Shown: one piece after another, positions 2,875-22,845 of the stretch
How positions within the stretch are numbered: position 1 is the stretch's first letter
Layout: the number at the start of each line of letters is the position of its first letter
Origin: an uncultured Acholeplasmatales bacterium
Lineage (GTDB): Bacteria; Bacillota_I; Bacilli_A; Acholeplasmatales; Anaeroplasmataceae
NCBI GenBank assembly: GCA_944324705.1
Contig: CALUXI010000011.1
Coordinates: 1-55,223 of the forward strand
Direction of reading: 5' to 3'
DNA: 55,223 nucleotides
The notes under the pieces: model-generated
What the model saw: only the letters and a program-made list of their open reading frames with translations
Told to the model about the DNA's origin: nothing
Database searches by the model: none
Translations under genes and position numbers: made by a program

Positions 2875-3648
2875 ATGGCGACATATACAATAATCCATAA
2901 ATTTGATGAAAAAACTTTAGAAATATGTGAAATTATTAAGAAAAATATAAAACTAGAATATGATGAAAAAAATCCTAATATAGTTTTTACAATTGGTGGT
3001 GATGGAACATTTATTAGGGCTTGTCATAAATATCCGACAGCTGTTTTTTTTGGTGTTCATACTGGCCATTTAGGGTTTTATTCTAATTTCAGTATTGAAG
3101 AATTACCAGTATTAATTAAGCAAATAAATGAACAAAATTATCAAGTTGAGCGTATTCCTTTGTTGTCAGTTCAGGTTATTAGTGATAAGGTCTATAATTA
3201 TACAGCAATTAATGAAATGACAATTATTAGTCCTCCACGAACATTAAAATTAGATGTTTATATTAATGATAATTTTTTTGAACACTTTAGAGGAACTGGT
3301 ATGTGTATTTCAACCCCGACTGGTTCAACAGCTTATAATAAGAGTTTAGGCGGGGCAGTTATTGATCATAATCTAAAGGTTATGCAGGTAACAGAAATTG
3401 CTGGAATTAATTCAAGCAGTTATGAAACTATTAATTCACCATTAATATTAGGACGTGGTTATGAGGTAGAATTATGTGCAGTTAATAGGTATAATAGTGT
3501 ATTTTTAACAGTTGATAATTTATCTTTAGAATTAAAAAACTTTAAAAAATTGAAAGCTTATATGGGTAATTATTTTGTTAAAGTTGGTGCAAATACTAAT
3601 TTAAATTTTATAAATCGGGTTAAGAGGTCATTTTTAGAAAACAGCTAA
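2875..3648 (+). CDS. nadK: NAD kinase
   Basis: This cytoplasmic enzyme phosphorylates NAD to NADP using ATP or polyphosphate. The 257-residue protein shows the family GGDGT motif (residues 41-45, FTIGGDGTF). The NAD-binding NExx motif appears as NEMTII, and the glycine-rich TPTGSTAYNKSLGGA follows. I chose ATG 2875 over an in-frame GTG at 2866 because AGGAAG lies eight bases upstream of the ATG and overlaps the GTG. In Bacillus the orthologue (nadF/ppnK) is also near yjbK. Use of polyphosphate as donor is known for some NAD kinases and could connect to the ppk gene at 46.5 kb, but that is speculative. Confidence 0.95.
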   Translation: MATYTIIHKFDEKTLEICEIIKKNIKLEYDEKNPNIVFTIGGDGTFIRACHKYPTAVFFGVHTGHLGFYSNFSIEELPVLIKQINEQNYQVERIPLLSVQVISDKVYNYTAINEMTIISPPRTLKLDVYINDNFFEHFRGTGMCISTPTGSTAYNKSLGGAVIDHNLKVMQVTEIAGINSSSYETINSPLILGRGYEVELCAVNRYNSVFLTVDNLSLELKNFKKLKAYMGNYFVKVGANTNLNFINRVKRSFLENS

Positions 3649-5061: not shown

Positions 5062-8000
5062 ATGAAGAAATCAATCAAAATTTTAGCACTGATATTTACT
5101 ATGTTAGTGATTATGGTTGTTGGTATTTCTTGTAAAGATAAAGAAGAACAAGGAAAGACACCAGCTGAATTAATAAGTGAAGTTAAAGCACAAGTAGAAG
5201 CATTAGAAATTCCGGAAACGGTAAGTGCTAGCTTTGAAGATGTAGCTTTATATCAATCAAATATTGAAGGAGTAACAGTTACTTATTCTTTAAGCGAAAA
5301 TGCAAATGGTTATTTAGGACTTAAAGATTATGTATTAAGCTTTATAGCTTTACCAGAAGAAAATGTTGGGGCTATTTTAACAGCTAATATTGCTTGTGGT
5401 GAAGAAAGTGATACTGTTGAATTTCAAATAAGAATTTATGCTGCTTCAACTCCACAATATAAAGTTGAGGTTGTGGCTCTTAATGGTAGAAAGTTACCAG
5501 GTGTTATTGTTGAATTTGAACTAAATGGTGAAAAAGTATTAGAAACAGAAACTAATGATAGTGGTGTGGCTTATGCATTATTAGATGCTGCTGAATATGA
5601 TGTCACTGTTTACTTAGAACCTGGTTATGTTTTTGAAGATGGTAGTGACATTTATAAAACAAAAACAGATACTAATTTCTCTGAAATAAATTTAGAATGT
5701 ATTCCTGATTTAATTTTAGATCCAGCATTAGAAGGCAACATTTATAATAATGGCGATCAAATGCATGATTTTACAGTTCAAACATATGATCCATTAACTA
5801 GAACATATAATAATACTTGGACGTTATCTGAAAAATTAGAAGAATATGATTTGGTAATTCTTAATTTCTGGTATACAGGTTGTTATTGGTGTGAATTCGA
5901 ATTCCCTATTTTAGCTGATGTGTATCAAGAATATTTAGATGCTGGTGCTAAAGTTACCATTTTAGGTATAGCTAATTCAGATTATGATGACAATGAATCT
6001 CTTCCTGTAGCTGCTCAAAGCTATGGTTTAAATTTTGACTTAGTTGTAGATGATGCACTTACAGATATGTTTGTAACAAGTGGTTTCCCAACAACAGCCT
6101 TCATTGATAGATATGGTACAGCTGATTATATTGAATCAGGTGCTATTACAAATGAAAGTCGTTGGAATAGTTTAATTGATACTTATTTAGCTGAAGATTA
6201 TGTTCCTGAATATAAAGGGACTAATGGTGATGAACCAGAATTAGTAGTTCCGGATATTGAATTCCCGGATTCTAGTGTTTTAGAGACAGCTTTAAATAAA
6301 GATGGATTTAAGGCTACTTATAAACCTGAAACTGATAGTAGTGACGCTGAATATTCATGGCCATTTATCGTTGATGAAGAAACTGGTTATGTAGTTCCTG
6401 CTAATAGTGGTATTTCTAATTCTTATGCTATTATGTATGTCGAAGTTGAACTTAAAGCTGGTCAAGGTTTTGCCTTTGATTATAGAAGTTCAACGGAAGA
6501 AGATATGGATGTTTTACATTTACTTTATGATGGAGCAATCTTAAGTGAATTTAGTGGTATTTCTGATGAAACTCAAACTTATTATCCATTTGTTGCGGAT
6601 AAAGACGGAACTTATGAATTTATCTTCATTTATACTAAAGACCAATTAGTTGATGAAGGAAATGATAAAGTATATTTAAGTAACTTCCGTTATGTTAATC
6701 CAGATGAAATTCCAGAAACATTATTTGTTGTTAGAGAATCTTCAACTGATATAAATTTAGTTGATGGTGGTTATTTAAATTATATTACTCCTGTATTTAA
6801 TAATAATGACGGATATTATCATGTTGGTGATGAAAATGGTCCATTATTATTAGGTGATATTATGTCAGCTACTCATTTCAGTAATGATACATTATTAAGT
6901 TATGCTGAAGCTAAAGAGTTTGAAGGCGAAATTAATGGAACTGATCTTAATGATTTAATTATTCGTTATTCTCAATATGCAGCTAATTCATTAACTCAAG
7001 GTTACACACCAGTTACAGAAGAATTAAAACAAGCTTTAATTGCAATTTCTAATCAAATGGGTACAAATGAAGACAAAGATAAAGAATGGCTAGAAATGAC
7101 AGTTTATTTCAATGTTTATGGTAACTATGAAGGTGATGAAAGAGTTAATCAAGAAACTGGTCAAATTATAGATCCAACAGAAGGTTTAGCTCACCATAAT
7201 GCATTTACAATTGAAAATTTAGATATAGCTGGTGATTTAAATGATGATGGATCTATTAAAGATACAGTAGATGATGCTGTAATTGCTGGTACTGTTGAAT
7301 ATACAATGGATAGATTCATTACAACAAGAGGATTCTATTTTGTCTTTGTTCCTGAATTTAGTGGTGTTTATCGTGTAATTGGTAAAACAGGTGGCTCAAC
7401 TGATTGCTATATCGAACTTCCAAATTATGAAATTTATGCTCAGTCTAATTTTGAAATTCGTGATTATTATAGATGGGCAGCTAGTGGCTCTGAAGTTGGT
7501 GACTTCAACACTTATGCTTATTTAGAAGCAGGTCAAACTTATTACGTTGTTCCTTACTACACTAATTATGGTGAATTTGGAAATGTTAATATGGATATTG
7601 AATACTTAGGTACAGAATATGTTGTTTTAGAAAAAGCTTCATCATTTGCTTATACAACTAGTGAAGACTTTACTGGTGAGGGTACAGGTAATATTGAAGA
7701 TATCATTATTTCAATTGGTATTGACTATGCTCTAGGTGAAGATGGATATTATCATGAATTATATTCAGATGGAACTTTAAGTAAAGATCCAATCTATTGG
7801 GATATGATTTATTCTAATATGTTAATCAATATGCCATTTGCAGAAGCTATGGAAGCAGATCCAACTGTCTTTGATGTGTCTAAAACTCAATTTGGTGATT
7901 CTATTATTGATGAAGAAGGTTATTTAATTGAGTGGGAATATACAGAAAATCCTACAACAGGTGAAACAACTAAAGAATCTCATCGAGTTTTAGATGATGC

Positions 8001-8268
8001 TAAACAACCAATTGAAGCTGATACCACTGTTTTAAGAGATTATATGAATGATGTTAAGAAGTGGCGTGAAGAATTAGAAGTTAAGGATGAAAATAATTCA
8101 GCTTATGGTTGTATTCCTGTTAACGAGGAAGTTAAGACTTTATTAGAATTATTAATGAATAAGTATAGCTTTAAAGATGTTGAAGGTTCATGGTTAAAAT
8201 TATGTTATTATTATAAATATTATGGAGCTTCTGAACATGCAACTGAAACAATAAAGCCTGCAAATTAG
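5062..8268 (+). CDS. Large lipoprotein with TlpA-like thioredoxin domain
   Basis: This 1068-residue surface lipoprotein probably has a thiol-disulfide or reductive role outside the membrane. A signal peptide ends in an unusual lipobox, VGISC. A transthyretin-like beta domain (about residues 130-215) precedes a TlpA/redoxin domain (about 235-375) with LNFWYTGCYWC, redox cysteines C274 and C277, and a cis-proline segment FPTTAF. The remainder is beta-rich: a module near 390-550, then two copies of a repeated unit ending in W-L-x-x-x-x-YY/YF-x-x-YG (about 565-700 and 870-1060) around a PPC-like sandwich (about 715-860). The transthyretin, PPC-like and terminal units recur in the lipoproteins at 22858 and 27560. 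It heads region A, followed by a hairpin at 8284. The substrate is unknown. Confidence 0.85.
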   Translation: MKKSIKILALIFTMLVIMVVGISCKDKEEQGKTPAELISEVKAQVEALEIPETVSASFEDVALYQSNIEGVTVTYSLSENANGYLGLKDYVLSFIALPEENVGAILTANIACGEESDTVEFQIRIYAASTPQYKVEVVALNGRKLPGVIVEFELNGEKVLETETNDSGVAYALLDAAEYDVTVYLEPGYVFEDGSDIYKTKTDTNFSEINLECIPDLILDPALEGNIYNNGDQMHDFTVQTYDPLTRTYNNTWTLSEKLEEYDLVILNFWYTGCYWCEFEFPILADVYQEYLDAGAKVTILGIANSDYDDNESLPVAAQSYGLNFDLVVDDALTDMFVTSGFPTTAFIDRYGTADYIESGAITNESRWNSLIDTYLAEDYVPEYKGTNGDEPELVVPDIEFPDSSVLETALNKDGFKATYKPETDSSDAEYSWPFIVDEETGYVVPANSGISNSYAIMYVEVELKAGQGFAFDYRSSTEEDMDVLHLLYDGAILSEFSGISDETQTYYPFVADKDGTYEFIFIYTKDQLVDEGNDKVYLSNFRYVNPDEIPETLFVVRESSTDINLVDGGYLNYITPVFNNNDGYYHVGDENGPLLLGDIMSATHFSNDTLLSYAEAKEFEGEINGTDLNDLIIRYSQYAANSLTQGYTPVTEELKQALIAISNQMGTNEDKDKEWLEMTVYFNVYGNYEGDERVNQETGQIIDPTEGLAHHNAFTIENLDIAGDLNDDGSIKDTVDDAVIAGTVEYTMDRFITTRGFYFVFVPEFSGVYRVIGKTGGSTDCYIELPNYEIYAQSNFEIRDYYRWAASGSEVGDFNTYAYLEAGQTYYVVPYYTNYGEFGNVNMDIEYLGTEYVVLEKASSFAYTTSEDFTGEGTGNIEDIIISIGIDYALGEDGYYHELYSDGTLSKDPIYWDMIYSNMLINMPFAEAMEADPTVFDVSKTQFGDSIIDEEGYLIEWEYTENPTTGETTKESHRVLDDAKQPIEADTTVLRDYMNDVKKWREELEVKDENNSAYGCIPVNEEVKTLLELLMNKYSFKDVEGSWLKLCYYYKYYGASEHATETIKPAN

Positions 8269-8338: not shown

Positions 8339-9112
8339 ATGAAAAGAGAAAATATTTATAAATTGATTAAATATATAACTGCTTTTTTCTCTGTTATAAT
8401 GATTATTTGTTTTATTGTTCAATTAGCAAGAATATTTTTTGGCAATTTAAATCCAATGTATTCTAGAGACTTAGTAGGTAAATACTTATTACAAATATTA
8501 CCAGTTCTTATTTTATGGGTTTTAGCTATTATTGTTGGTTTAATATTTTCTTTATTTGTTAAAGAAAAGAAATTTGTTTATGTCAAAACCACTGAAGAAG
8601 CTAAACTTAAAATTTTAGAAACTAATATAGATAGTTCTTTAGAAGATAATGAAGATTTTAATAATTTAAAAAGACTTAAATTTAAAATGAAAGTAGCATT
8701 AATTATTAGTCTAGTTATATATGCTATTTGTTTAGTGATGGTATCTTTATATTTATTTAATCCTAAACACTTCATTTATAACGGTGAAATTAATAAACAA
8801 GTTATGGATATGTTTATTAATATCATACCTTGGATTATTATTGCTTTAATTACTTTAGTAGTTTATACCTATTATGTGAACTATGTTTCTAAAAAGGGAG
8901 TAAACTATGCTAAAGCTATAATTAAGACAGAGGGAAAAGTTAAAAAAACTTATAAGCGAATTAAAAAAGAATTATTAATTATAAATTTAGTGCGAGCTAG
9001 TATAATTGTTTTAGCTATTACACTTATTATTGTGGGCGTATTTGCTGGGGAAGCTCAAAGAGTGTATCAAAAGGCTGTTAACATTTGTACTGAGTGTATA
9101 GGACTTGGTTAA
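8339..9112 (+). CDS. Five-TM membrane protein ending in a CxxC tail (CD1871A-like)
   Basis: The 257-residue protein has about five hydrophobic segments (starting near residues 13, 45, 115, 155 and 215). It ends in GEAQRVYQKAVNICTECIGLG, with redox-type cysteines C250 and C253. This ending closely resembles the small CD1871A family of CXXC-motif membrane proteins of clostridia, here attached to a longer membrane domain. I chose ATG 8339 over an in-frame GTG at 8306, because the GTG lies inside the 8284 hairpin while AGGAG stands before the ATG. It lies one base upstream of the polyferredoxin gene, so the two are surely co-transcribed. A role in passing electrons or thiols across the membrane is inferred from the CxxC and the neighbours. 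Confidence 0.7.
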   Translation: MKRENIYKLIKYITAFFSVIMIICFIVQLARIFFGNLNPMYSRDLVGKYLLQILPVLILWVLAIIVGLIFSLFVKEKKFVYVKTTEEAKLKILETNIDSSLEDNEDFNNLKRLKFKMKVALIISLVIYAICLVMVSLYLFNPKHFIYNGEINKQVMDMFINIIPWIIIALITLVVYTYYVNYVSKKGVNYAKAIIKTEGKVKKTYKRIKKELLIINLVRASIIVLAITLIIVGVFAGEAQRVYQKAVNICTECIGLG

Positions 9113-9113
9113 T

Positions 9114-11117
9114 ATGCTTACTAAAGTTAAGAATTTCTTTGTTCGTATTTGGCCCAGCAAACGAAAATTAATTCAACTTTATAGTGCTTTGTTGCACAAT
9201 GCTCATATTAAAGGTTTTGTAACCGGAAAAATATTTGATGGTGGTTTAAAAAATATTTGTGGCCCGGGATTTAATTGTTATTCATGCCCAGGGGCAGTAG
9301 TAGCTTGCCCGCTTGGTTCAATTCAAAATGCTTTAGCCGAAAGTAAAACTAAGACCCCTACTTATGTGTTTGGTATAATATTGCTTTATTGTATTATTTT
9401 AGGTAGAACAATTTGTGGCTATTTATGTCCGGCTGGTTTATTACAAGAATTATTATATAAAATTAAGACACCAAAATTAAAAAAGAGTAAAGTTACTCGC
9501 ATTTTATCTTATACTAAATATGTTTTACTTTTTGTTTTAGTAATAGGTGTTCCACTTATGTATGCCTTACAAGAAAATAATATGCCTGTTCCAGCCTTTT
9601 GTAAGTACATTTGTCCGGTAGGTACTTTTGAGGGTGGGGTATTCCTTTTAATGCCAGAAAGTAATTCTAGTTATTATAGTATGTTAGGTGCTTTATTTTC
9701 TTGGAAGTTCTTAATAATGTTATTAATAGTTTTAAGTTCAATCTTTATTTACCGGGTATTCTGTCGTTTCTTATGTCCATTAGGTGCTATTTATGGTTTA
9801 TTTAACAAACTATCTATTTTAGGTGTTAAAGTAAATAAAGAAAAATGTACTAATTGTCATGCTTGTGTAAATGTATGTAAGATGGATGTTAAAGAAGTCG
9901 GAGACCATGAATGTATTAATTGTGGTGAATGTATTGATGTATGTAAGCATGATGCTATTAAATGGAAAAATATTATTAGAGATTTAAGAAAAGAAAGAGA
10001 ATTAGAATTAAGTTATGCTGATAATAATTTAAATGAAGTAAATAACAAAATCGAAGATAATAACAAAGTAGTTAATTATACTATTTCAAATACAAGTAGT
10101 TCTAATAATAATGCTGAAAATTTAGAAACAGCAAATGTAGGCAAAACTAAGAAAAATAATAAAAGTTTAATAACTAAAATAGCAACTAGTGTTTTAATGG
10201 TAGGTATTTTAGTTACGGTTTTAGTTTTAACTAATGTTGATTTTGGTCCAAAATTATATTTGCAAAATAGTGTAGTTGATGAATTTACTACTAAATTATT
10301 ATCTGAACAGGAATATGATGTAAATTCGACAGAAAAGAAAGTTAAAGTATTCTATTTCTATGATGATTTTGACGAGGTTATTTTAAATGAATTAGATTCG
10401 CTCGTAACTAATGATATTGAAATTGTAGCTATTACTAAATATGATAATAAAGAAGAGTATAAAGCTTTAGTAAGTTCTAATTTTAGTGATAGTGATTTAA
10501 TCTTTGGATATGATTCAGTAAATCAAACTGAAATATCAAGATTTACTAGTGATATTAATTACCCTTATATCGTTATTCTAGATAGTGAAAATAAGGTTAT
10601 TGTTAGTGAACAAGGAACTTATAGTGAAGCATATAATAATCGTTATATTATGCCTTTGGCTAATGATATAACAATGGGTAATGAAGTTGGTGATTATTGT
10701 TTAATTCAAGATATTAGTAATTTAGCTGATGGTTCAAGATTGGCTATTGATGATTATCGTGGTCAAATAGTAGTACTTAACTTCTGGTATGTTGAATGTG
10801 CTCCTTGTAAGGCAGAATTGCCACATTTTAGTGAAATTAATACTAAATATGATGAAGTAGAAGTAATAGCTGTTTCAAGTAGAATGTGGTATGATTCTAT
10901 GCCTGAAGAAACCAAAGCTTATGCCGCTGATTCTGGATATAATATAACTTGGGCATATGATAATACAGGTGAAACTTATACAGATGCCTTATTTGGTAAG
11001 CATGATGCTTATCCAGCAACAGTCATAATTGATCAAGAGGGTTATGTAGCCTATAAAACAATGGGTGGAGTTACCCTAGATGAATTAGAAGCAGTAATTA
11101 CATCTTTATTAGAATAG
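9114..11117 (+). CDS. NapH/CcoG-like polyferredoxin fused to external thioredoxin domains
   Basis: This 667-residue membrane protein probably carries electrons from the cytoplasm to an external thioredoxin. The N-terminal part has NapH/RdxA-type motifs: C49, C55, C58 and C65, then ICGYLCPAG, YICPVG and FLCPLGA between membrane helices. Two cytoplasmic 4Fe-4S clusters follow (C245, C248, C251, C255 and C267, C270, C273, C277). A further helix near residue 350 leads outside. There, a thioredoxin-like domain without cysteines (about 375-500, cis-proline in INYPYIV) precedes an active one (about 525-667) with FWYVECAPC, C562 and C565. I prefer ATG 9114 to an in-frame TTG at 9105, which has GGA only one base before it. 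The terminal acceptor is unknown. Confidence 0.85.
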   Translation: MLTKVKNFFVRIWPSKRKLIQLYSALLHNAHIKGFVTGKIFDGGLKNICGPGFNCYSCPGAVVACPLGSIQNALAESKTKTPTYVFGIILLYCIILGRTICGYLCPAGLLQELLYKIKTPKLKKSKVTRILSYTKYVLLFVLVIGVPLMYALQENNMPVPAFCKYICPVGTFEGGVFLLMPESNSSYYSMLGALFSWKFLIMLLIVLSSIFIYRVFCRFLCPLGAIYGLFNKLSILGVKVNKEKCTNCHACVNVCKMDVKEVGDHECINCGECIDVCKHDAIKWKNIIRDLRKERELELSYADNNLNEVNNKIEDNNKVVNYTISNTSSSNNNAENLETANVGKTKKNNKSLITKIATSVLMVGILVTVLVLTNVDFGPKLYLQNSVVDEFTTKLLSEQEYDVNSTEKKVKVFYFYDDFDEVILNELDSLVTNDIEIVAITKYDNKEEYKALVSSNFSDSDLIFGYDSVNQTEISRFTSDINYPYIVILDSENKVIVSEQGTYSEAYNNRYIMPLANDITMGNEVGDYCLIQDISNLADGSRLAIDDYRGQIVVLNFWYVECAPCKAELPHFSEINTKYDEVEVIAVSSRMWYDSMPEETKAYAADSGYNITWAYDNTGETYTDALFGKHDAYPATVIIDQEGYVAYKTMGGVTLDELEAVITSLLE

Positions 11118-15069: not shown

Positions 15070-16479
15070 GTGGATAATTTTAAAAAGATTAAAAGAAAAT
15101 TTACAATAGAAGCTTTATTAATTGCTCTTTTTGCGGCCTTATTTATTGGGGTAGCTGTTAGTTCTATTTTAGTCCTAACTTATAAGCAGTTAGGGCTAGA
15201 GTATAACTTATTACTCTTTATTTTAATTGGGGTAGCTGTATTTGTTGTTTGTGGTGTTATCTTATTCTTTATTTTAAAACCTAATAATATTAAGGTAGCT
15301 AAACGAATTGATAAGCAATTACATTTAAAAGAGAAAGTTCATACTATGATTGAATATGAAGGAAAAGAAGGATATTTAGTTAGTTTACAAAGAGAAGATG
15401 CTAAACAAAAATTAAATGAAATATCTGTTAAAAAAGTTAAATTTAAATTTCATTATTTTTGGCTTATTTTCCCTCTTGTTGCCTTACCTTTGTGTTTAAG
15501 CTCAATTTTGGTTAAAGGGGTCGAAACAACTCCTCCACCAATTGAAGAAAAACCAATCTCAGGAGATCCTAAGATTATTCAACAAATTAGAGATTTGATA
15601 AGAGAAGTTAATGAAGATGTTAATTTAATACCAGCAGTAAAAGAGGCTTATGTAGGTCATTTAGAAGATTTAATTACGGCTATTGATGTACCTAATATTA
15701 CAAGATCCGATGAGGTAGAAGCAGTTAATTTGACAATTAATAATATTAGTTATTCAAGAATTAATTTGAATTCTATTGATAATATAGCTGATGCATTAAG
15801 TAATTCAAACCAAGAAGAAGCCCATCTTTTAGGAGTTGCATTAGATACTTTTTTAGAAGATGAAATTAATAATGCTTTAGATGATATTGGGTCTTACATT
15901 ATAACTCCAAGCTCACCAACACAAAGAAAACAAAACTTTGAGGAATTAGTTACTAATGGTTTCAATTTAATTGATATGGAAAGATTACCTGAAGATGATG
16001 AATTATATCAAGTTTTCATTAATTTAAAAGCTGATTTAGAAACAGCTTTAAATAGTGAAAATAATACTTCAGCTGTTAATACTGTTGTCAAAGATGCTAA
16101 AGCAGATTTAAATTATGCGGTATTAAGACAAAAAGAATCTTTAGATATGGCTAGTTATATTGAAGCAAGATTAACTGTAATCTTCCAATTACCAGATCCT
16201 GAGGAACCAGTAAATCCAGATATTCCGGATGGTCCTAGTGATGTTGAAGATCCAACAAAGCCAGGTGGGGGCGGTGGCGGTCACGGCGATACAATTTATC
16301 CTGGCAATGACCCTGTTTATGACCCTGATGAAGGTTTAGTACCTTATTATGAAGTCATTAATAAGTATAGTGCTTATATTGAAGGCTTAGTTCAAGATGG
16401 AGTAATCTCTGAAGAATTAGCTAATTACTACATAGAATATTTTAATAATTTATATCAAGCAAATGAGGATAGTGAGTAA
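15070..16479 (+). CDS. Membrane protein of MoxR/VWA operon
   Basis: The 469-residue protein starts with GTG after GGAGGG. It has two N-terminal membrane helices (about residues 13-38 and 46-70), a cytoplasmic basic stretch, and a third helix (about 133-152). A mostly helical external region of about 300 residues follows. A low-complexity segment rich in proline and glycine, including seven G in eight residues (GGGGGGHG), lies near 400, then a short helical tail. The layout resembles the DUF4175-like or helical membrane proteins often found next to MoxR and DUF58 genes, but I recognise no family with confidence. Its position directly before moxR suggests it is a membrane component or client of that complex. 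Confidence 0.7.
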   Translation: MDNFKKIKRKFTIEALLIALFAALFIGVAVSSILVLTYKQLGLEYNLLLFILIGVAVFVVCGVILFFILKPNNIKVAKRIDKQLHLKEKVHTMIEYEGKEGYLVSLQREDAKQKLNEISVKKVKFKFHYFWLIFPLVALPLCLSSILVKGVETTPPPIEEKPISGDPKIIQQIRDLIREVNEDVNLIPAVKEAYVGHLEDLITAIDVPNITRSDEVEAVNLTINNISYSRINLNSIDNIADALSNSNQEEAHLLGVALDTFLEDEINNALDDIGSYIITPSSPTQRKQNFEELVTNGFNLIDMERLPEDDELYQVFINLKADLETALNSENNTSAVNTVVKDAKADLNYAVLRQKESLDMASYIEARLTVIFQLPDPEEPVNPDIPDGPSDVEDPTKPGGGGGGHGDTIYPGNDPVYDPDEGLVPYYEVINKYSAYIEGLVQDGVISEELANYYIEYFNNLYQANEDSE

Positions 16480-16480
16480 A

Positions 16481-17488
16481 ATGGGAAATAAAGAAGTAAT
16501 GGAAAAAGATTTAGAAAAGGTAGCTCAATTTAGTGCTACTATAGCTAAAATAAAAGAAGAAATTAAAAAAGACGTTGTAGGTCAAGATGATATTGTTAAC
16601 AATGTAATAATTGCTATTATAGCTGGTGGTAATATCTTACTTGAAGGTGTTCCTGGAGTAGGTAAAACAAGACTTGTTAGATCATTAAGTCAAATTTTAC
16701 ATTTACCTTTCTCAAGAATTCAATTCACACCAGATTTAATGCCTAGTGATGTTACTGGTACTAACGTAATTGATAGAGATGTAAATGATAAGATGCAAAT
16801 AGTTTTCCAAAAAGGACCTATTTTTGCTAATTTAATTTTAGCCGATGAAATTAACCGGGCTACGCCTAAAACTCAATCAGCTTTACTAGAAGTAATGCAA
16901 GAACATAAGGTTACAATTTCTAATAAGACTTATCAAATGAGTGAACCTTTCTTCGTTCTTGCTACTGAAAACCCAATTGAACAAGATGGTACTTATCCGC
17001 TTCCTGAAGCCCAAATGGACCGCTTTATGTTTAAGTTAATAGTAGGTTTTCCAAGCCTTGAAGAATTAAAAGACATTGTTACAATGACACAAATTACGAT
17101 GGCTGAAACAGCCGAATCAATTGTTAATGGTAATGATATATTAGAAATGCGTGAATTAGCTAAAACAGTACCTTTACTTGATGATGTTTTAACTTATGCT
17201 ATGCATTTAGTAACTTCAACTCATCCAGAACTTGAAGGAAATGAAATTGCTAAAAAATATATTAGATACGGGGCTTCCCCAAGAGCGGCTCAAGCTATCA
17301 TTACAGCAAGTAAAGTAAAAGCTTTAATTGATGGTAATTATAATGTTTCATACAATGATATTGATGAGCTAGCTTACCCGGTTTTAAGACACAGAATTAA
17401 ATTATCATATAATGCTATCAATGATCATTTATCAATCGATGATGTAATCGGACTATTAATCAAGGATTTAAGAAAGTTTAAAAAATAA
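16481..17488 (+). CDS. MoxR-family AAA+ ATPase
   Basis: MoxR ATPases act as chaperones that help assemble or activate partner proteins, usually with VWA-domain partners. The 335-residue protein has Walker A GVPGVGKT (residues 56-63), Walker B LILADEIN (D122, E123), a sensor stretch VLATENPIEQDGTYPLPEAQ, and the arginine-containing MDRFMFKL. I prefer ATG 16481 over the longer ATG 16463, because the only Shine-Dalgarno-like sequence (GAGG at 16464-16467) lies inside the longer form. It is followed with a one-base overlap by DUF58 and then two VWA genes, the standard MoxR operon order. Family assignment is secure; the substrate is not known. Confidence 0.95.
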   Translation: MGNKEVMEKDLEKVAQFSATIAKIKEEIKKDVVGQDDIVNNVIIAIIAGGNILLEGVPGVGKTRLVRSLSQILHLPFSRIQFTPDLMPSDVTGTNVIDRDVNDKMQIVFQKGPIFANLILADEINRATPKTQSALLEVMQEHKVTISNKTYQMSEPFFVLATENPIEQDGTYPLPEAQMDRFMFKLIVGFPSLEELKDIVTMTQITMAETAESIVNGNDILEMRELAKTVPLLDDVLTYAMHLVTSTHPELEGNEIAKKYIRYGASPRAAQAIITASKVKALIDGNYNVSYNDIDELAYPVLRHRIKLSYNAINDHLSIDDVIGLLIKDLRKFKK

Positions 17489-18366
17489 TGTATTCTATTG
17501 ATGAAAAGTTTTTACAAAAGATTGAAACCTTAGATCTAATTTTAAAAAATAGTAATTTTGGATCTTATGGTGGCAATCATAAGTCTAAATTATTCGGTTC
17601 ATCGAGTGAATTTGCTGATTATCGTGATTATTTGGCTGGCGATGAAATGACGAAAATTGATTGGAATGCTTATCAAAGATTTAATAAACTTTATTTAAAA
17701 CTTTATCTAGATGAAAGACAATCTCATACTAAAATATATATAGATGCTAGTCGTTCTATGGTATATGGTAAAGGAGATAAAGCCGATTATGCTTTAAAGT
17801 TAGCCGCTATCTTTGCTTATATTTCTATTTGTAATATGGATAAGGCTTCTATTTATTATATTAAAGATAATAAAATCTATGATGTAGCAGTTAATTTAGC
17901 TAATAAAGATAGTTTTTATAGTGAAATTCTTAAATTAAATCAAATAGAATTTTCTGGTGATTGTTTTATTAGTGAAAGTCTATTACCTTTAAATGTAGGT
18001 TATGGTGATGGTCTTTCAATCATTATTTCAGATTTCTTGACGGATAATAATTATGAAGCAGGAATTGATCATTTAGTTGATAAAAAAAGAGATGTCTTGT
18101 GTATACAAGTGTTATCAAAAGAAGAAATTAAACCTAAAATAAGGGGAAAGGTTCAATTATATGATTCTGAAGATAACAATAAAATATTTAAAAAGAATGT
18201 TAATAAAGATGTAATTATAGCTTATGAAAAAGCTTTAAACTACATTAAAGAACGATTACAAAATTATTGTAATTCTCGAGATGCTTCTTATTTATTTGTT
18301 AAAAGTAATGCTGATGAAGGAGAAGTATTCTTAAATATCTTAACGCAAATGGGGGTATTAAAATGA
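17488..18366 (+). CDS. DUF58 domain protein
   Basis: DUF58 proteins are standard partners of MoxR ATPases and have a VWA-like fold. The 292-residue protein shows the DUF58 signature EFADYRDYLAGDEMTKIDWN (about residues 44-63). The metal-binding DASRSM (D86) follows, and then a Rossmann-like stretch ending in IISDFL. No membrane helix or signal was seen, so it should sit in the cytoplasm and link the ATPase to membrane VWA partners. Its ATG overlaps the moxR stop (TAATG), and its own stop is TGA, inside ATGA with the next start. It is the one gene in the window whose stop I read as TGA, which shows UGA is still a stop codon here. Confidence 0.92.
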   Translation: MYSIDEKFLQKIETLDLILKNSNFGSYGGNHKSKLFGSSSEFADYRDYLAGDEMTKIDWNAYQRFNKLYLKLYLDERQSHTKIYIDASRSMVYGKGDKADYALKLAAIFAYISICNMDKASIYYIKDNKIYDVAVNLANKDSFYSEILKLNQIEFSGDCFISESLLPLNVGYGDGLSIIISDFLTDNNYEAGIDHLVDKKRDVLCIQVLSKEEIKPKIRGKVQLYDSEDNNKIFKKNVNKDVIIAYEKALNYIKERLQNYCNSRDASYLFVKSNADEGEVFLNILTQMGVLK

Positions 18367-20222
18367 GTTTTTCTTATCCTTTAGGTTTTTTAATACTAAT
18401 TTTTATCCCCGTTTTAATTATTCTTTATATTTTAAAGAATAAATTTACGGAGCAAACCGTATCTTCAACCTATATTTGGAAACTTAGTGAAAAGTTTTTA
18501 AAAAGAAGAAGACCAATTTCAAGAATATATGGTATTTTAAGTTTGATATTGCAATGCTTATTGGTTGCGGTTATAGCTTTAGCTGTTGCTCATCCTCAAA
18601 TTAACTTGCCAAACCAAGCTAGAGATTATTGTTTTATAATCGATTCTTCTGGTTCTATGTTAATGAAAAATGGCGAAAAGACGCGCTATGATTTAGCTAA
18701 AGAAGAAATAAATAGTATTATAAATTCATCACAACTTGGTTCAACATATACCTTAATTAGTTGTGAAGATACGGCTACGGTAATATATGAAAATATAACA
18801 AATAAAGAGAGTGCTTCAGCTCAATTAAATTCGTTAACTATTACTAGTTTAGATAGTAAATGCGTTGATGCTATACCTTTAGCTCAAAACTACTATGATG
18901 AAAATAGATCACTTCAAGTTTATGTAGCTAGTGATAAAGGATATCAAACTTCTAATATTAATTTAATTGATGTTTCAAGTGATTCACAAAACTTTAGTTT
19001 TAGTGATGTAGTATATAATGTTTCTTTAAGAAGACTTACATTAAATGGTAATATTAGCTCTTATAATGCTTCAGGAACAGTTGAAGTTAGTTTAATTGTT
19101 GATGATGAACAATTAGCCACTACTAGTGTTAATACTATTTTAAATGAAAAAGCTAATTTTAGTTTTAATGATATTAATATTTCCGAAGATTATCAAAATA
19201 TTACATTAGTCATTAATAATACTGATGACTTAGAAGCTGATAACACATACATTGTTTATAATTTAGTTCAAGAAAGAGTAAATAAAACTTTAATTGTAAG
19301 TTATAATCCTTTATATCTTGAATCACTATTAAGTGCCTTTGGTACACTTGATATTACGGTTATTGAACCAACAGATTATTCACCACAAGATTACTTTGGT
19401 TATGGCCTTTATATTTTTGATGGTTATAATCCTAACGAATTACCTGTAGATGGTAGTGTTTGGTTGATCAATATTGATGATGGGGTTATGAGTGATTATG
19501 GTTTTAGCTTACAGGATTCTTTAGATTATGGTAATGTTGGGGTTTTAGTTGATGTTAATGAAAGAAGTAATACTTTATTAAATAGCTTAAAAGCTAATTT
19601 AACAGGGGATACTTTTTATGTTACAAGTTATCAAAAATACAGCTTATATAATAACTTTACTACTGTTTTAAGTTGTGAAGGTAATCCGATTTTATTTGTT
19701 GGTAATACTAATTCTGGAAATCGTGAGGTTGTGTTTGCTTTTGATATTCATAACTCAAATTTACCGTTATCTATGGATTTTATTATTTTAGTTAATAATT
19801 TAGTCAATTATTCTTTCCCAACTATTTTAGAAAATACAAGTTATGAAGCTGGTGATTCTTTAGTAGTAAATGTTTTAGCTGGTTGTTCAAGTATTGAAGT
19901 TATAACTCCTAGTGGTTTAAATACTTATTTAGATACTAGTGGGGCAATTAGTGAATATTTACTAAGTGAAGCTGGAACTTATAATATCAATGTCACAATT
20001 GATGGTGCAGTTACTAATTTTAAAGTATTTGCAAGTTATCCAGCTAGTGAAAGCCAAGTAGTAGAAGATTTAGAAGTCGAAAGCCTTTCTTTAACAGGCG
20101 AACAAGAGGCACATTATGGTGATGGAATATATCAAAGTTTAGTTTATTTATTTATCGCACTTGGTATTATTTTTATCGCAGATTGGATGGTGTATTGTTA
20201 TGAGCAATATAAACTTCGCTAA
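18363..20222 (+). CDS. BatA-like membrane protein with VWA domain
   Basis: The 619-residue protein has the N-terminal BatA/aerotolerance-type start: a first membrane helix with SYPLGFLILIFIPVLIIL, a basic loop, and a second helix (about 58-80). An external VWA domain follows with the metal-ion motif DSSGSM (D94). Beta-sandwich regions and a region with DVNERSNTLL come next. A C-terminal membrane helix near 590-610 ends it. In Bat-type operons such proteins are thought to act with MoxR in envelope stress or protein maturation. The ATG overlaps the DUF58 stop, and the end overlaps the next gene by 23 bases, so translation is probably coupled. Confidence 0.88.
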   Translation: MSFSYPLGFLILIFIPVLIILYILKNKFTEQTVSSTYIWKLSEKFLKRRRPISRIYGILSLILQCLLVAVIALAVAHPQINLPNQARDYCFIIDSSGSMLMKNGEKTRYDLAKEEINSIINSSQLGSTYTLISCEDTATVIYENITNKESASAQLNSLTITSLDSKCVDAIPLAQNYYDENRSLQVYVASDKGYQTSNINLIDVSSDSQNFSFSDVVYNVSLRRLTLNGNISSYNASGTVEVSLIVDDEQLATTSVNTILNEKANFSFNDINISEDYQNITLVINNTDDLEADNTYIVYNLVQERVNKTLIVSYNPLYLESLLSAFGTLDITVIEPTDYSPQDYFGYGLYIFDGYNPNELPVDGSVWLINIDDGVMSDYGFSLQDSLDYGNVGVLVDVNERSNTLLNSLKANLTGDTFYVTSYQKYSLYNNFTTVLSCEGNPILFVGNTNSGNREVVFAFDIHNSNLPLSMDFIILVNNLVNYSFPTILENTSYEAGDSLVVNVLAGCSSIEVITPSGLNTYLDTSGAISEYLLSEAGTYNINVTIDGAVTNFKVFASYPASESQVVEDLEVESLSLTGEQEAHYGDGIYQSLVYLFIALGIIFIADWMVYCYEQYKLR

Positions 20223-22845
20223 TCCTTATTTATTATTAATTTTAATTCCAGTTTTATTAATTATTTTAATTCCTTTCTTAATTACTTTTAAAAAGGATAA
20301 TTTGGGAATTAGAAATATCCTTAGTTTAATCTTACATGTTGTAATTTCTATTTTAGTTGTTTTTGTTATTGCAGGAATGACTTATAAGACAGCTATTGAT
20401 GAAACCAATATTTATGTTTTAGCCGATGTTTCTTATTCTGCTAATCGAAATTTAGATACTATTGATAATTATATTGAAGAATTAGAAGCTAAAGCTGATA
20501 ATAAAACTAAAGTTGGGGTTGTATGTTTTGGAACTAATACACCTTATGTCTTAACTACACCAGGAGAAGGACTAAAGAGTGTTAGAGATGGGGTTAGTCG
20601 TATTGATCAAAGTGGAACCGATATTGCAGGTTCTTTAAGATATACTGCTAGTCTATTTGATGAAAATGTCATAAAAAGAATCATTTTAATTACTGATGGT
20701 GATGACACTAATAATGGTAATGTCTTAAATGTTGTCAATGAACTTTATTCACAAAATATTTATGTAGATGCTATTTATTTAAATGATAATTTACCAAGTG
20801 ATGAAATAGAGGCTCAAATTAATGAAGCTAACTATACACTTTCTACTTATCAAAATAAAGAAGAAAATGTTCAAGTAACAGTTCAATCTAATCTTAGTCA
20901 TAACGCTAGTTTGATTGAACTTAAAAAAGATGGCGAAGTAATTTATACATACGCACCATCTTTAGCTAAAGGAATTAATGTCTTCACTTTACCTTTAGAT
21001 ACTAGTGAAGCAGGAACATTTAAATATGAGGTTACTATCGATGTAACAGGTGATAATTCACCACATAATAATACTTATAGTTTTACCCAAACCGTTACAG
21101 AAAATGTTAAAATTTTATATTTAGCAAGCAATGATGTTGAAGAAAGTAAGGCTAATACTTACTTCAAAAAGGAAAATACAGAAGTAACTTATTTAAATGT
21201 TTTAAAAGATTCTATTCCTTATACTGTAGAAGATTTATGTCAATATGATGAATTTGTATTGTCTGATGTTGATGTATCTGCAATTAGAAATAATGGTCAA
21301 TTTATGGCTAATTTAGATTTAATAGTTTCACGTTATGCTAAAACTTTAATTACTTTAGGTAATACTTATACTCAAAATGATATTACTGATGAGTATTCTT
21401 TATCAACTTTATCCGGTATGTTACCTATTAAATATGGAGAAAGTGATAGAGATGGTAAATTAATATGTTTATTAATTGATATTTCTAAAAGTATGACAGA
21501 ATCTTATCATTTAGATACAGCTAAAGAAGCAGCATCTAAAATAGTAGATTTAGCCTCTGATTCAGATAATATTATGGTTCTAACTTTAAGTGGTGAAACA
21601 AGTTTCTTACAAATTAGCACTAAAGTTAATGATGGGGTTAGATTAACTGTTAAAGAAAAAATTAATGGAATTGAAGAAAGACAAGGTACCTTAATAGGTT
21701 CAAGTTTAAGAGAAACTTATAATGCAATTGGGGATCTTCCTTTCTTGCAAAAACAAATTTATTTAATTTCTGATGGTAGAAATATGACAGGGGATCCTGT
21801 TAGTGCAGTTAATATGGCTAGTCAAATATATAGAGAAACAGGAACAACCATTTCTTGTATTGGTATTGGGGCTGATGATGGTTCTAATTTACTGCAAAAT
21901 ATTGCTAATAATGGGGCTGGAAAGTATTATACTGCTAGTGAAGTAAAAGATTTAGAAGAGCTATTCGATAATGAGTTATCTGATATTGTTGGTGAAACAG
22001 TAGATAATGAAGGTGTCAATAGAGAAATTGAAGTTAATAGAGAAAGTGATTTATCTTTATCTAATATTGAAGGCGATATTGAAGCTGTTAGAGGTCTTTA
22101 TTTGGGAACTTCTAAAAATTCAGCTATTAGTGTTTTAAATACAACAATATCTACAAACACTAATGATTTTACATATCCAGTTTATGCTTATTGGAATTAT
22201 GGAAATGGCTTAGTTGCAAGTTTTTCTTGTGATATTAATAATCCATATTGGCTAAGTAATTGGACTACTGGTTCTAATGGTGAAAAGTTCTTACAAAACT
22301 TAATAAGTGCTAATCTTCCAGGCCAAAGAGAAGGAACACCAATGATTATTGAAATTGATAGCGAAGGTAGTACAAGTTATGTTTATGCAAGTACACCAAC
22401 TCTAAATCCTAATGCTAAATTAGCGTTGACCTTGACCATGCCAGATGGCTCAACATTAACACGTGACTTGGTTTATACAACTACTGATTATCAAACAAAT
22501 TTCGAAGCTGAAATACCAGGTACTTATAAGTTATCGATTAGTTATGAATTAAATAATATTAGTTATACAAGAGAATACATTTATGATGTTTCATACACAG
22601 AAGAATATAATAGTTTTGCTTATTATGAAATTTCTAACTTAAATCATATGGTTAACAATGGTAACCCCGTTTATGAAAATGCTAGTAGTGTCGATTTAAG
22701 TATAGATGAAACAAAGAGTACAACATATTCTTATGATTTTACAGTACTATTTATGACGATTGCAATTTGTTTATTTGTTGTTGATATCTTTATTAGAAAA
22801 GTTAAATGGGCAGATATTAAGAACTTATTTAGCCACAAACACTAA
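20200..22845 (+). CDS. Double-VWA membrane protein with glutamine-amidotransferase-like domain
   Basis: The 881-residue protein has two N-terminal helices (about 8-28 and 40-62). A first VWA domain carries DVSYSA (D76) and ITDGDD. A beta-sandwich follows, then a region starting KILYLASNDVEE (about 305-420) that looks like the class I amidotransferase-like fold of related VWA membrane proteins. A second VWA domain has DISKSM (D427) and LISDGRN. A C-terminal helix is near 850. The start chosen is ATG 20200, preceded by GGATGG, not an in-frame TTG at 20161. It overlaps the preceding BatA-like gene. Two complete metal-binding VWA sites in one chain suggest a scaffold for MoxR-dependent assembly; the ligand is unknown. 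Confidence 0.88.
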   Translation: MSNINFANPYLLLILIPVLLIILIPFLITFKKDNLGIRNILSLILHVVISILVVFVIAGMTYKTAIDETNIYVLADVSYSANRNLDTIDNYIEELEAKADNKTKVGVVCFGTNTPYVLTTPGEGLKSVRDGVSRIDQSGTDIAGSLRYTASLFDENVIKRIILITDGDDTNNGNVLNVVNELYSQNIYVDAIYLNDNLPSDEIEAQINEANYTLSTYQNKEENVQVTVQSNLSHNASLIELKKDGEVIYTYAPSLAKGINVFTLPLDTSEAGTFKYEVTIDVTGDNSPHNNTYSFTQTVTENVKILYLASNDVEESKANTYFKKENTEVTYLNVLKDSIPYTVEDLCQYDEFVLSDVDVSAIRNNGQFMANLDLIVSRYAKTLITLGNTYTQNDITDEYSLSTLSGMLPIKYGESDRDGKLICLLIDISKSMTESYHLDTAKEAASKIVDLASDSDNIMVLTLSGETSFLQISTKVNDGVRLTVKEKINGIEERQGTLIGSSLRETYNAIGDLPFLQKQIYLISDGRNMTGDPVSAVNMASQIYRETGTTISCIGIGADDGSNLLQNIANNGAGKYYTASEVKDLEELFDNELSDIVGETVDNEGVNREIEVNRESDLSLSNIEGDIEAVRGLYLGTSKNSAISVLNTTISTNTNDFTYPVYAYWNYGNGLVASFSCDINNPYWLSNWTTGSNGEKFLQNLISANLPGQREGTPMIIEIDSEGSTSYVYASTPTLNPNAKLALTLTMPDGSTLTRDLVYTTTDYQTNFEAEIPGTYKLSISYELNNISYTREYIYDVSYTEEYNSFAYYEISNLNHMVNNGNPVYENASSVDLSIDETKSTTYSYDFTVLFMTIAICLFVVDIFIRKVKWADIKNLFSHKH

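Follow-up and report, generated by a model that had tools for sequence, protein, structure and literature searches.

The protein encoded at positions 9114 to 11117 of the forward strand is, by gene neighbourhood and profile matches, a fused form of a three-part module made of a polyferredoxin, a membrane protein of the CD1871A family, and TlpA-like thioredoxins. This module is widespread in anaerobic bacteria and probably conveys electrons from inside the cell to protein thiols outside. The window, by which we mean the whole 55,223-nucleotide stretch of contig CALUXI010000011.1 analyzed here (from an uncultured Acholeplasmatales bacterium of the gut), is part of an assembly of 1.64 Mb that is 97% complete.

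Translation from the ATG at 9114 to the stop at 11117 gives a protein of 667 amino acids, whose parts were assigned using Pfam, NCBIfam, and AlphaFold2. Residues 1 to 290 (9114–9983) form a NapH-like membrane part with two CxxCxxCxxxC [4Fe-4S] motifs, matched by Fer4_5 (E 2e-18) and, at residues 238 to 286, by Fer4/Fer4_7. A basic linker precedes the last hydrophobic helix, which spans residues 353 to 371 (10170–10226; 349 to 374 in the model) and runs from inside to outside according to hydropathy and charge count. Two TlpA-like domains follow: domain 1 (residues 378–516, 10245–10661), which is devoid of cysteines, and the active domain 2 (residues 517–667, 10662–11114), with CAPC at 562/565. 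Pfam places AhpC-TSA/Redoxin at residues 532 to 661, in domain 2 (PF00578, 59.6 bits with a cut-off of 26), and returned no match between the last helix and this domain. Domain 2 is a TlpA/ResA thioredoxin in which the Trx fold, the CxxC motif, and the cis-proline are all present, and C562, C565, and P634 are kept in 40 of 40 wider relatives. Pfam, HMM, and AlphaFold2 evidence thus agrees with an earlier sequence-only reading of this DNA, which had described NapH-like helices, two 4Fe-4S motifs, a further helix, and two thioredoxin-like domains, the second retaining CAPC. The protein has 22 cysteines in all, and only C529, C562, and C565 lie beyond the last helix. The first of these (10698–10700), overlooked in that reading, is a third external cysteine directly before the active TlpA domain; it is present in all eight Anaeroplasmataceae orthologues and in 23 of 40 wider relatives. 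A scan for promoters and terminators gave matches at chance level.

The gene upstream of the fused gene (8339–9112, forward strand; start set by its ribosome site and homology) encodes a membrane protein with five hydrophobic helices and a C-terminal CTECIGLG. It matches CD1871A, an NCBI-named family (NCBIfam NF040920), at 46.4 bits with a cut-off of 32, and its stop codon (9110–9112) ends one base before the ATG of the fused gene. The charge count puts its N terminus inside, and with five helices the predicted location of the tail is outside. The fusion had been read as a direct path from cytoplasmic ferredoxin to an external thiol; the idea of an alternative route to such a thiol stands, but its directness is doubtful because the CD1871A protein, which had been missed, is probably in the electron path. 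Further upstream, a large lipoprotein (5062–8268, forward strand) carries an active TlpA-like domain with CYWC at 274/277 and is a possible partner or client. The window therefore holds a CD1871A protein with the CxEC[IV]G[LI]G tail, a polyferredoxin with its full cysteine set, and TlpA both as a fused domain and in the lipoprotein at 5062.

A profile scan of one genome per species, covering 84,980 species, returned at least 575 relatives, and 80 loci were used for comparison. A CD1871A-type gene lies directly upstream in 80 of 80 of these loci. Its tail follows the pattern C.EC.G.G in 77; read by eye, the tails of the other three are CKACIGLG, CTQCIGLG, and, in a locus at a contig edge, CTECIGLG. 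Among 196 evenly sampled Clostridia genomes, CD1871A scored over the cut-off in 30; a polyferredoxin-HMM match adjoins it in all 30 loci, unfused in nearly all, and a TlpA-like stretch lies within flanks of about 1.5 kb in 22. The genome annotation of Peptoclostridium acidaminophilum DSM 3953 shows this trio as well. We assign the window protein to this module because the CD1871A–polyferredoxin pair is constant and TlpA is mostly nearby; the fusion itself is real, but it is one of many rather than peculiar to the window. In a quick tree of the polyferredoxin part, which has many open forks, a large clade of fused proteins is nested among unfused ones; fused and unfused forms taken together occur commonly in gut Bacillota.

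Other genes recur around the fused gene. In several Bacilli it is followed by genes for a membrane protein, a MoxR ATPase, DUF58, and vWA proteins (15070–22845 in the window; also loci L031, L152, and L156), this run coming directly after it in L152 and L156, whereas in the window and L031 two Big_3 lipoproteins lie in between. Between 11118 and 45346, the window encodes a long series of large lipoproteins that bear Big_3 or other repeats; several are rich in cysteine, and one, of 2511 aa, is protease-like and has leucine-rich repeats.

The topology of the fused protein was deduced from the positive-inside rule together with the first helix of the AlphaFold2 model, which is weak and lies near residues 16 to 28. 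Lysine and arginine number 7 in residues 105 to 132, 2 in residues 154 to 198, and 19 in residues 220 to 351, which include the Fe-S motifs; after residue 372 the protein is acidic (19 K/R versus 54 D/E). These counts point to a cytoplasmic N terminus, cytoplasmic Fe-S motifs, and an external location for both thioredoxin domains, as the sequence-only reading had held. Confidence is modest in the membrane part of the model (pLDDT of 55–87 by block), which was built without cofactors, and a fold search with the full-length model, which had only thioredoxin chains among the matches listed, is uninformative on this part.

In the polyferredoxin part, 18 of 19 cysteines are invariant across the family; among 118 fused and unfused sequences, the sole exception is one W in one row. 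The whole invariant set is present in the fused protein. It includes four residues that would lie at the inner face (C101, C105, C217, and C221) and an extra set of six, C49, C55xxC58, C65P, and C163xxxC167P (9258–9614, forward strand), which the topology would put at the outer face. The NapH-type helices and 4Fe-4S motifs of the membrane part had been recognized earlier, but these six outer cysteines had been overlooked. In an alignment, Escherichia coli NapH has the eight Fe-S ligands and all four inner cysteines, and none of the outer six. This bears on the possibility that electrons come from quinol or another respiratory donor, as proposed for NapH, with external thiols still the acceptor. 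The membrane half does resemble NapH (96.6 bits to TIGR02163, below the curated cut-off of 213.05) and has the two inner CxxxCP pairs in common with it. However, besides the missing outer cysteines, the alignments of NapH, NosR, and similar plasmid-borne proteins begin only at about residues 66 to 101 among the matches listed, and the hosts of the module are mostly gut anaerobes; we therefore regard a respiratory donor as unlikely. The sole match over residues 16 to 283 among those listed was the P. acidaminophilum protein that adjoins CD1871A. Polyferredoxins of this kind also include CcoG, whose model gives a weak match (23.8 bits versus 316.7), and the protein could thus be a metal reductase or a metal-centre assembly factor, with thioredoxin domains that keep its metal-binding cysteines or clients reduced. 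This is quite improbable given that the constant neighbours are CxxC proteins, not metal transporters.

Domain 1 (about residues 378–516) has zero cysteines and hence lacks the CxxC of TlpA/ResA. In an alignment of 11 sequences, the CxxC turn is replaced by FYDDFDE here and by SSRN in Clostridia, and P484, at the place of the cis-proline, is invariant. An HMM built only from the active TlpA domains of non-tandem relatives gave domain 1 a score of 31.9 bits; the highest score among 1000 shuffles was 8.3. Modeled alone by AlphaFold2 with the 11 sequences, the domain reached a pLDDT of 93.2 and a pTM of 0.89; it compares with FetE at Z 16.9 (rmsd 2.1 over 133 residues) and with ResA at Z about 15, and both Foldseek and VIA-align group it with FetE, ResA, Etrx, and other TlpA proteins. 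HMM, model, and fold comparison together identify domain 1 as thioredoxin-like, with a predicted TlpA/ResA fold. The claim that it keeps the fold and the cis-proline without cysteines is thereby upheld, the region being thioredoxin-like in the predicted structure and both domains being outside by charge count.

A second active-site-free copy could simply be a functionless duplicate in decay, as the loss of the cysteines and the low identity of domain 1 to distant relatives (17–31%) might suggest. Nonsynonymous distances to three congeners, however, are 0.34 to 0.40 for domain 1, 0.34 to 0.45 for the active domain, and 0.65 to 0.75 for the linker, synonymous sites being near saturation and ratios therefore rough. 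Domain 1 thus diverges about as much as the active domain and less than the linker, and so appears to be under constraint. Its confidently predicted fold, its occurrence in three families of the class, and the rise and retention of Cys-less copies on at least three occasions likewise make decay improbable. We infer instead that domain 1 arose by duplication of a TlpA domain, lost its chemistry, and is retained as a binding or positioning module. Docking of the TlpA lipoprotein had been suggested for it but is not supported; a homologue of this lipoprotein occurs in 5 of 5 loci with a dead first domain and in about 24 of 75 other loci, a comparison that is uninformative on docking because the loci are related.

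Two thioredoxin matches were found in the window protein and its seven relatives, in L034, L044, and L058 (dead first domain), and in L068 and L083 (dead second domain). The last two are Lachnospiraceae with the reverse tandem, the active TlpA domain coming first and the Cys-less copy last. A dead first domain is also present in L152 and L153, from two families beyond the window's own in the same class. The tree requires two origins for the dead-first arrangement and at least one for the dead-second; on this phylogenetic evidence, Cys-less copies arose repeatedly, a clear example of an enzyme domain turned to structural use. In L040, L054, and L107, the last helix and the TlpA domain are separated by an insert of another kind; these inserts were considered as thioredoxin domains and rejected, having no match to the thioredoxin HMM.

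The sequence-only reading had noted that neither CcdA nor DsbD is seen in the window and had proposed the fusion as an alternative to them. This absence extends to the whole assembly, in which searches for PF02683 (DsbD_TM), PF13386 (DsbD_2), and VKOR gave no match; the fused protein itself has no Pfam match to DsbD_TM or DsbD_2, and the module-bearing relatives of the window have no DsbD_TM, DsbD_2, or VKOR, the last looked for in 10 genomes. None of the 58 genomes that carry the fused module had CcdA over the cut-off, versus 97 of 196 in the Clostridia sample, which supports the proposed alternative through a contrast that comes from Clostridia only. There, CcdA exceeds the cut-off in 0 of 50 genomes of the fused set versus the same 97 of 196 (Fisher p about 2e-13, relatedness ignored). 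For CD1871A of any kind, the figures are 8 of 30 Clostridia genomes versus 89 of 165 (p 0.009), and the module is therefore not always a replacement, since those eight genomes also carry CcdA. In the window's order, CcdA was found in 0 of 120 sampled genomes, with or without the module, and an anti-correlation within the order was dropped because all 120 relatives lack CcdA. The module is a concrete candidate for external thiol reduction in strict anaerobes without CcdA/DsbD, with defined parts and cysteines that can be point-mutated.

We think it rather likely that TlpA thiols on the outside are reduced with electrons from a low-potential donor in the cytoplasm, probably ferredoxin, which an Fe-S wire and the tail of CD1871A would convey. 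The scheme whose cofactors, donor, direction, order of transfer, and roles for the tail and domain 1 we infer would run as follows. A ferredoxin-like donor would reduce the two cytoplasmic [4Fe-4S] clusters, from which electrons would pass by way of the inner-face site (C101, C105, C217, and C221) to the outer six-cysteine site, then to the CTEC tail of CD1871A, and from there to the CAPC of domain 2 or to the TlpA lipoprotein, which would keep surface-protein thiols in the reduced state. Since ferredoxins have lower potentials than protein dithiols, reduction is the downhill direction. Secreted proteins encoded around the fused gene carry many cysteines; therefore, clients exist. The reverse flow, in which external thiols are oxidized to disulfides and electrons enter the cell, is very improbable, as it would be energetically uphill toward ferredoxin and ResA/TlpA-type domains are usually reductants. 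What speaks for it is that VKOR is absent from the 10 genomes tested, an oxidant of that type thus being missing, and that FetE, which has the TlpA fold, may act as an oxidase (PMC10783030).

A more specific form of the reductive scheme, which we put forward tentatively, makes the module a membrane counterpart of ferredoxin:thioredoxin reductase (FTR). The outer six cysteines would hold one [4Fe-4S] cluster and one redox disulfide, and the CD1871A tail would be a swinging carrier, so that single ferredoxin electrons could bring about dithiol reduction outside, with Cys, rarely Sec, as the carrier residue. If true, this would be a second, Fe-S-based route of transmembrane thiol reduction, widespread in Bacillota without CcdA. 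In one genome, at L155 (G527:C17, near 3480–3530; also L136), the CD1871A frame has a UGA at the first Cys of the tail (KAVRV-UGA-LECIGIG), the motif being otherwise intact, and SelB scores over the cut-off. A pattern search of 391 Clostridia genomes for further Sec tails found only this case, and no clear SECIS hairpin was seen downstream of the UGA in this single genome. The variant suggests a candidate selenoprotein with a redox selenol at its tail, mutation or sequencing error being possible as well; if UGA encodes Sec, the first Cys of the tail would be the attacking residue.

CcdA and DsbD supply external TlpA-like domains with reducing power, DipZ being a CcdA–TlpA fusion, and CcdA works by thiol exchange from cytoplasmic thioredoxin with no Fe-S clusters. 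The job of the window module would be the same, and DipZ is likewise fused, yet no homology was found. FTR couples one-electron Fe-S chemistry to a two-electron disulfide, with six cysteines at its centre, and is soluble; no sequence relation to the module was seen, and the likeness is one of principle only. ResA, TlpA, and Etrx resemble domain 2 in sequence and fold and domain 1 in fold; unlike them, domain 1 has no cysteines and both domains are joined to a polyferredoxin. Like the fused protein, NapH/MauN proteins combine membrane helices with two [4Fe-4S] motifs and two CxxxCP pairs on the inner side, but NapH lacks the six outer cysteines, last helix, and thioredoxin domains of the fused protein. 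Literature searches on CD1871A and on polyferredoxin–thioredoxin fusions returned no functional paper, and the operon is described only in a 2025 preprint on a 4Fe-4S/CxxC/TlpA three-protein operon of gut Clostridia (PMC12637426), which gives no mechanism, topology, or cysteine analysis. There, the CxxC gene lies between the TlpA and 4Fe-4S genes in all cases but one, and the unfused operon is reported to predict immune side effects in melanoma immunotherapy (PMC12637426); given that link, knowing what it does would be useful more broadly. The operon has its three components in common with the window module, but whereas its proteins are separate, in the window TlpA is fused and accompanied by a dead second copy, next to a five-helix CD1871A protein.
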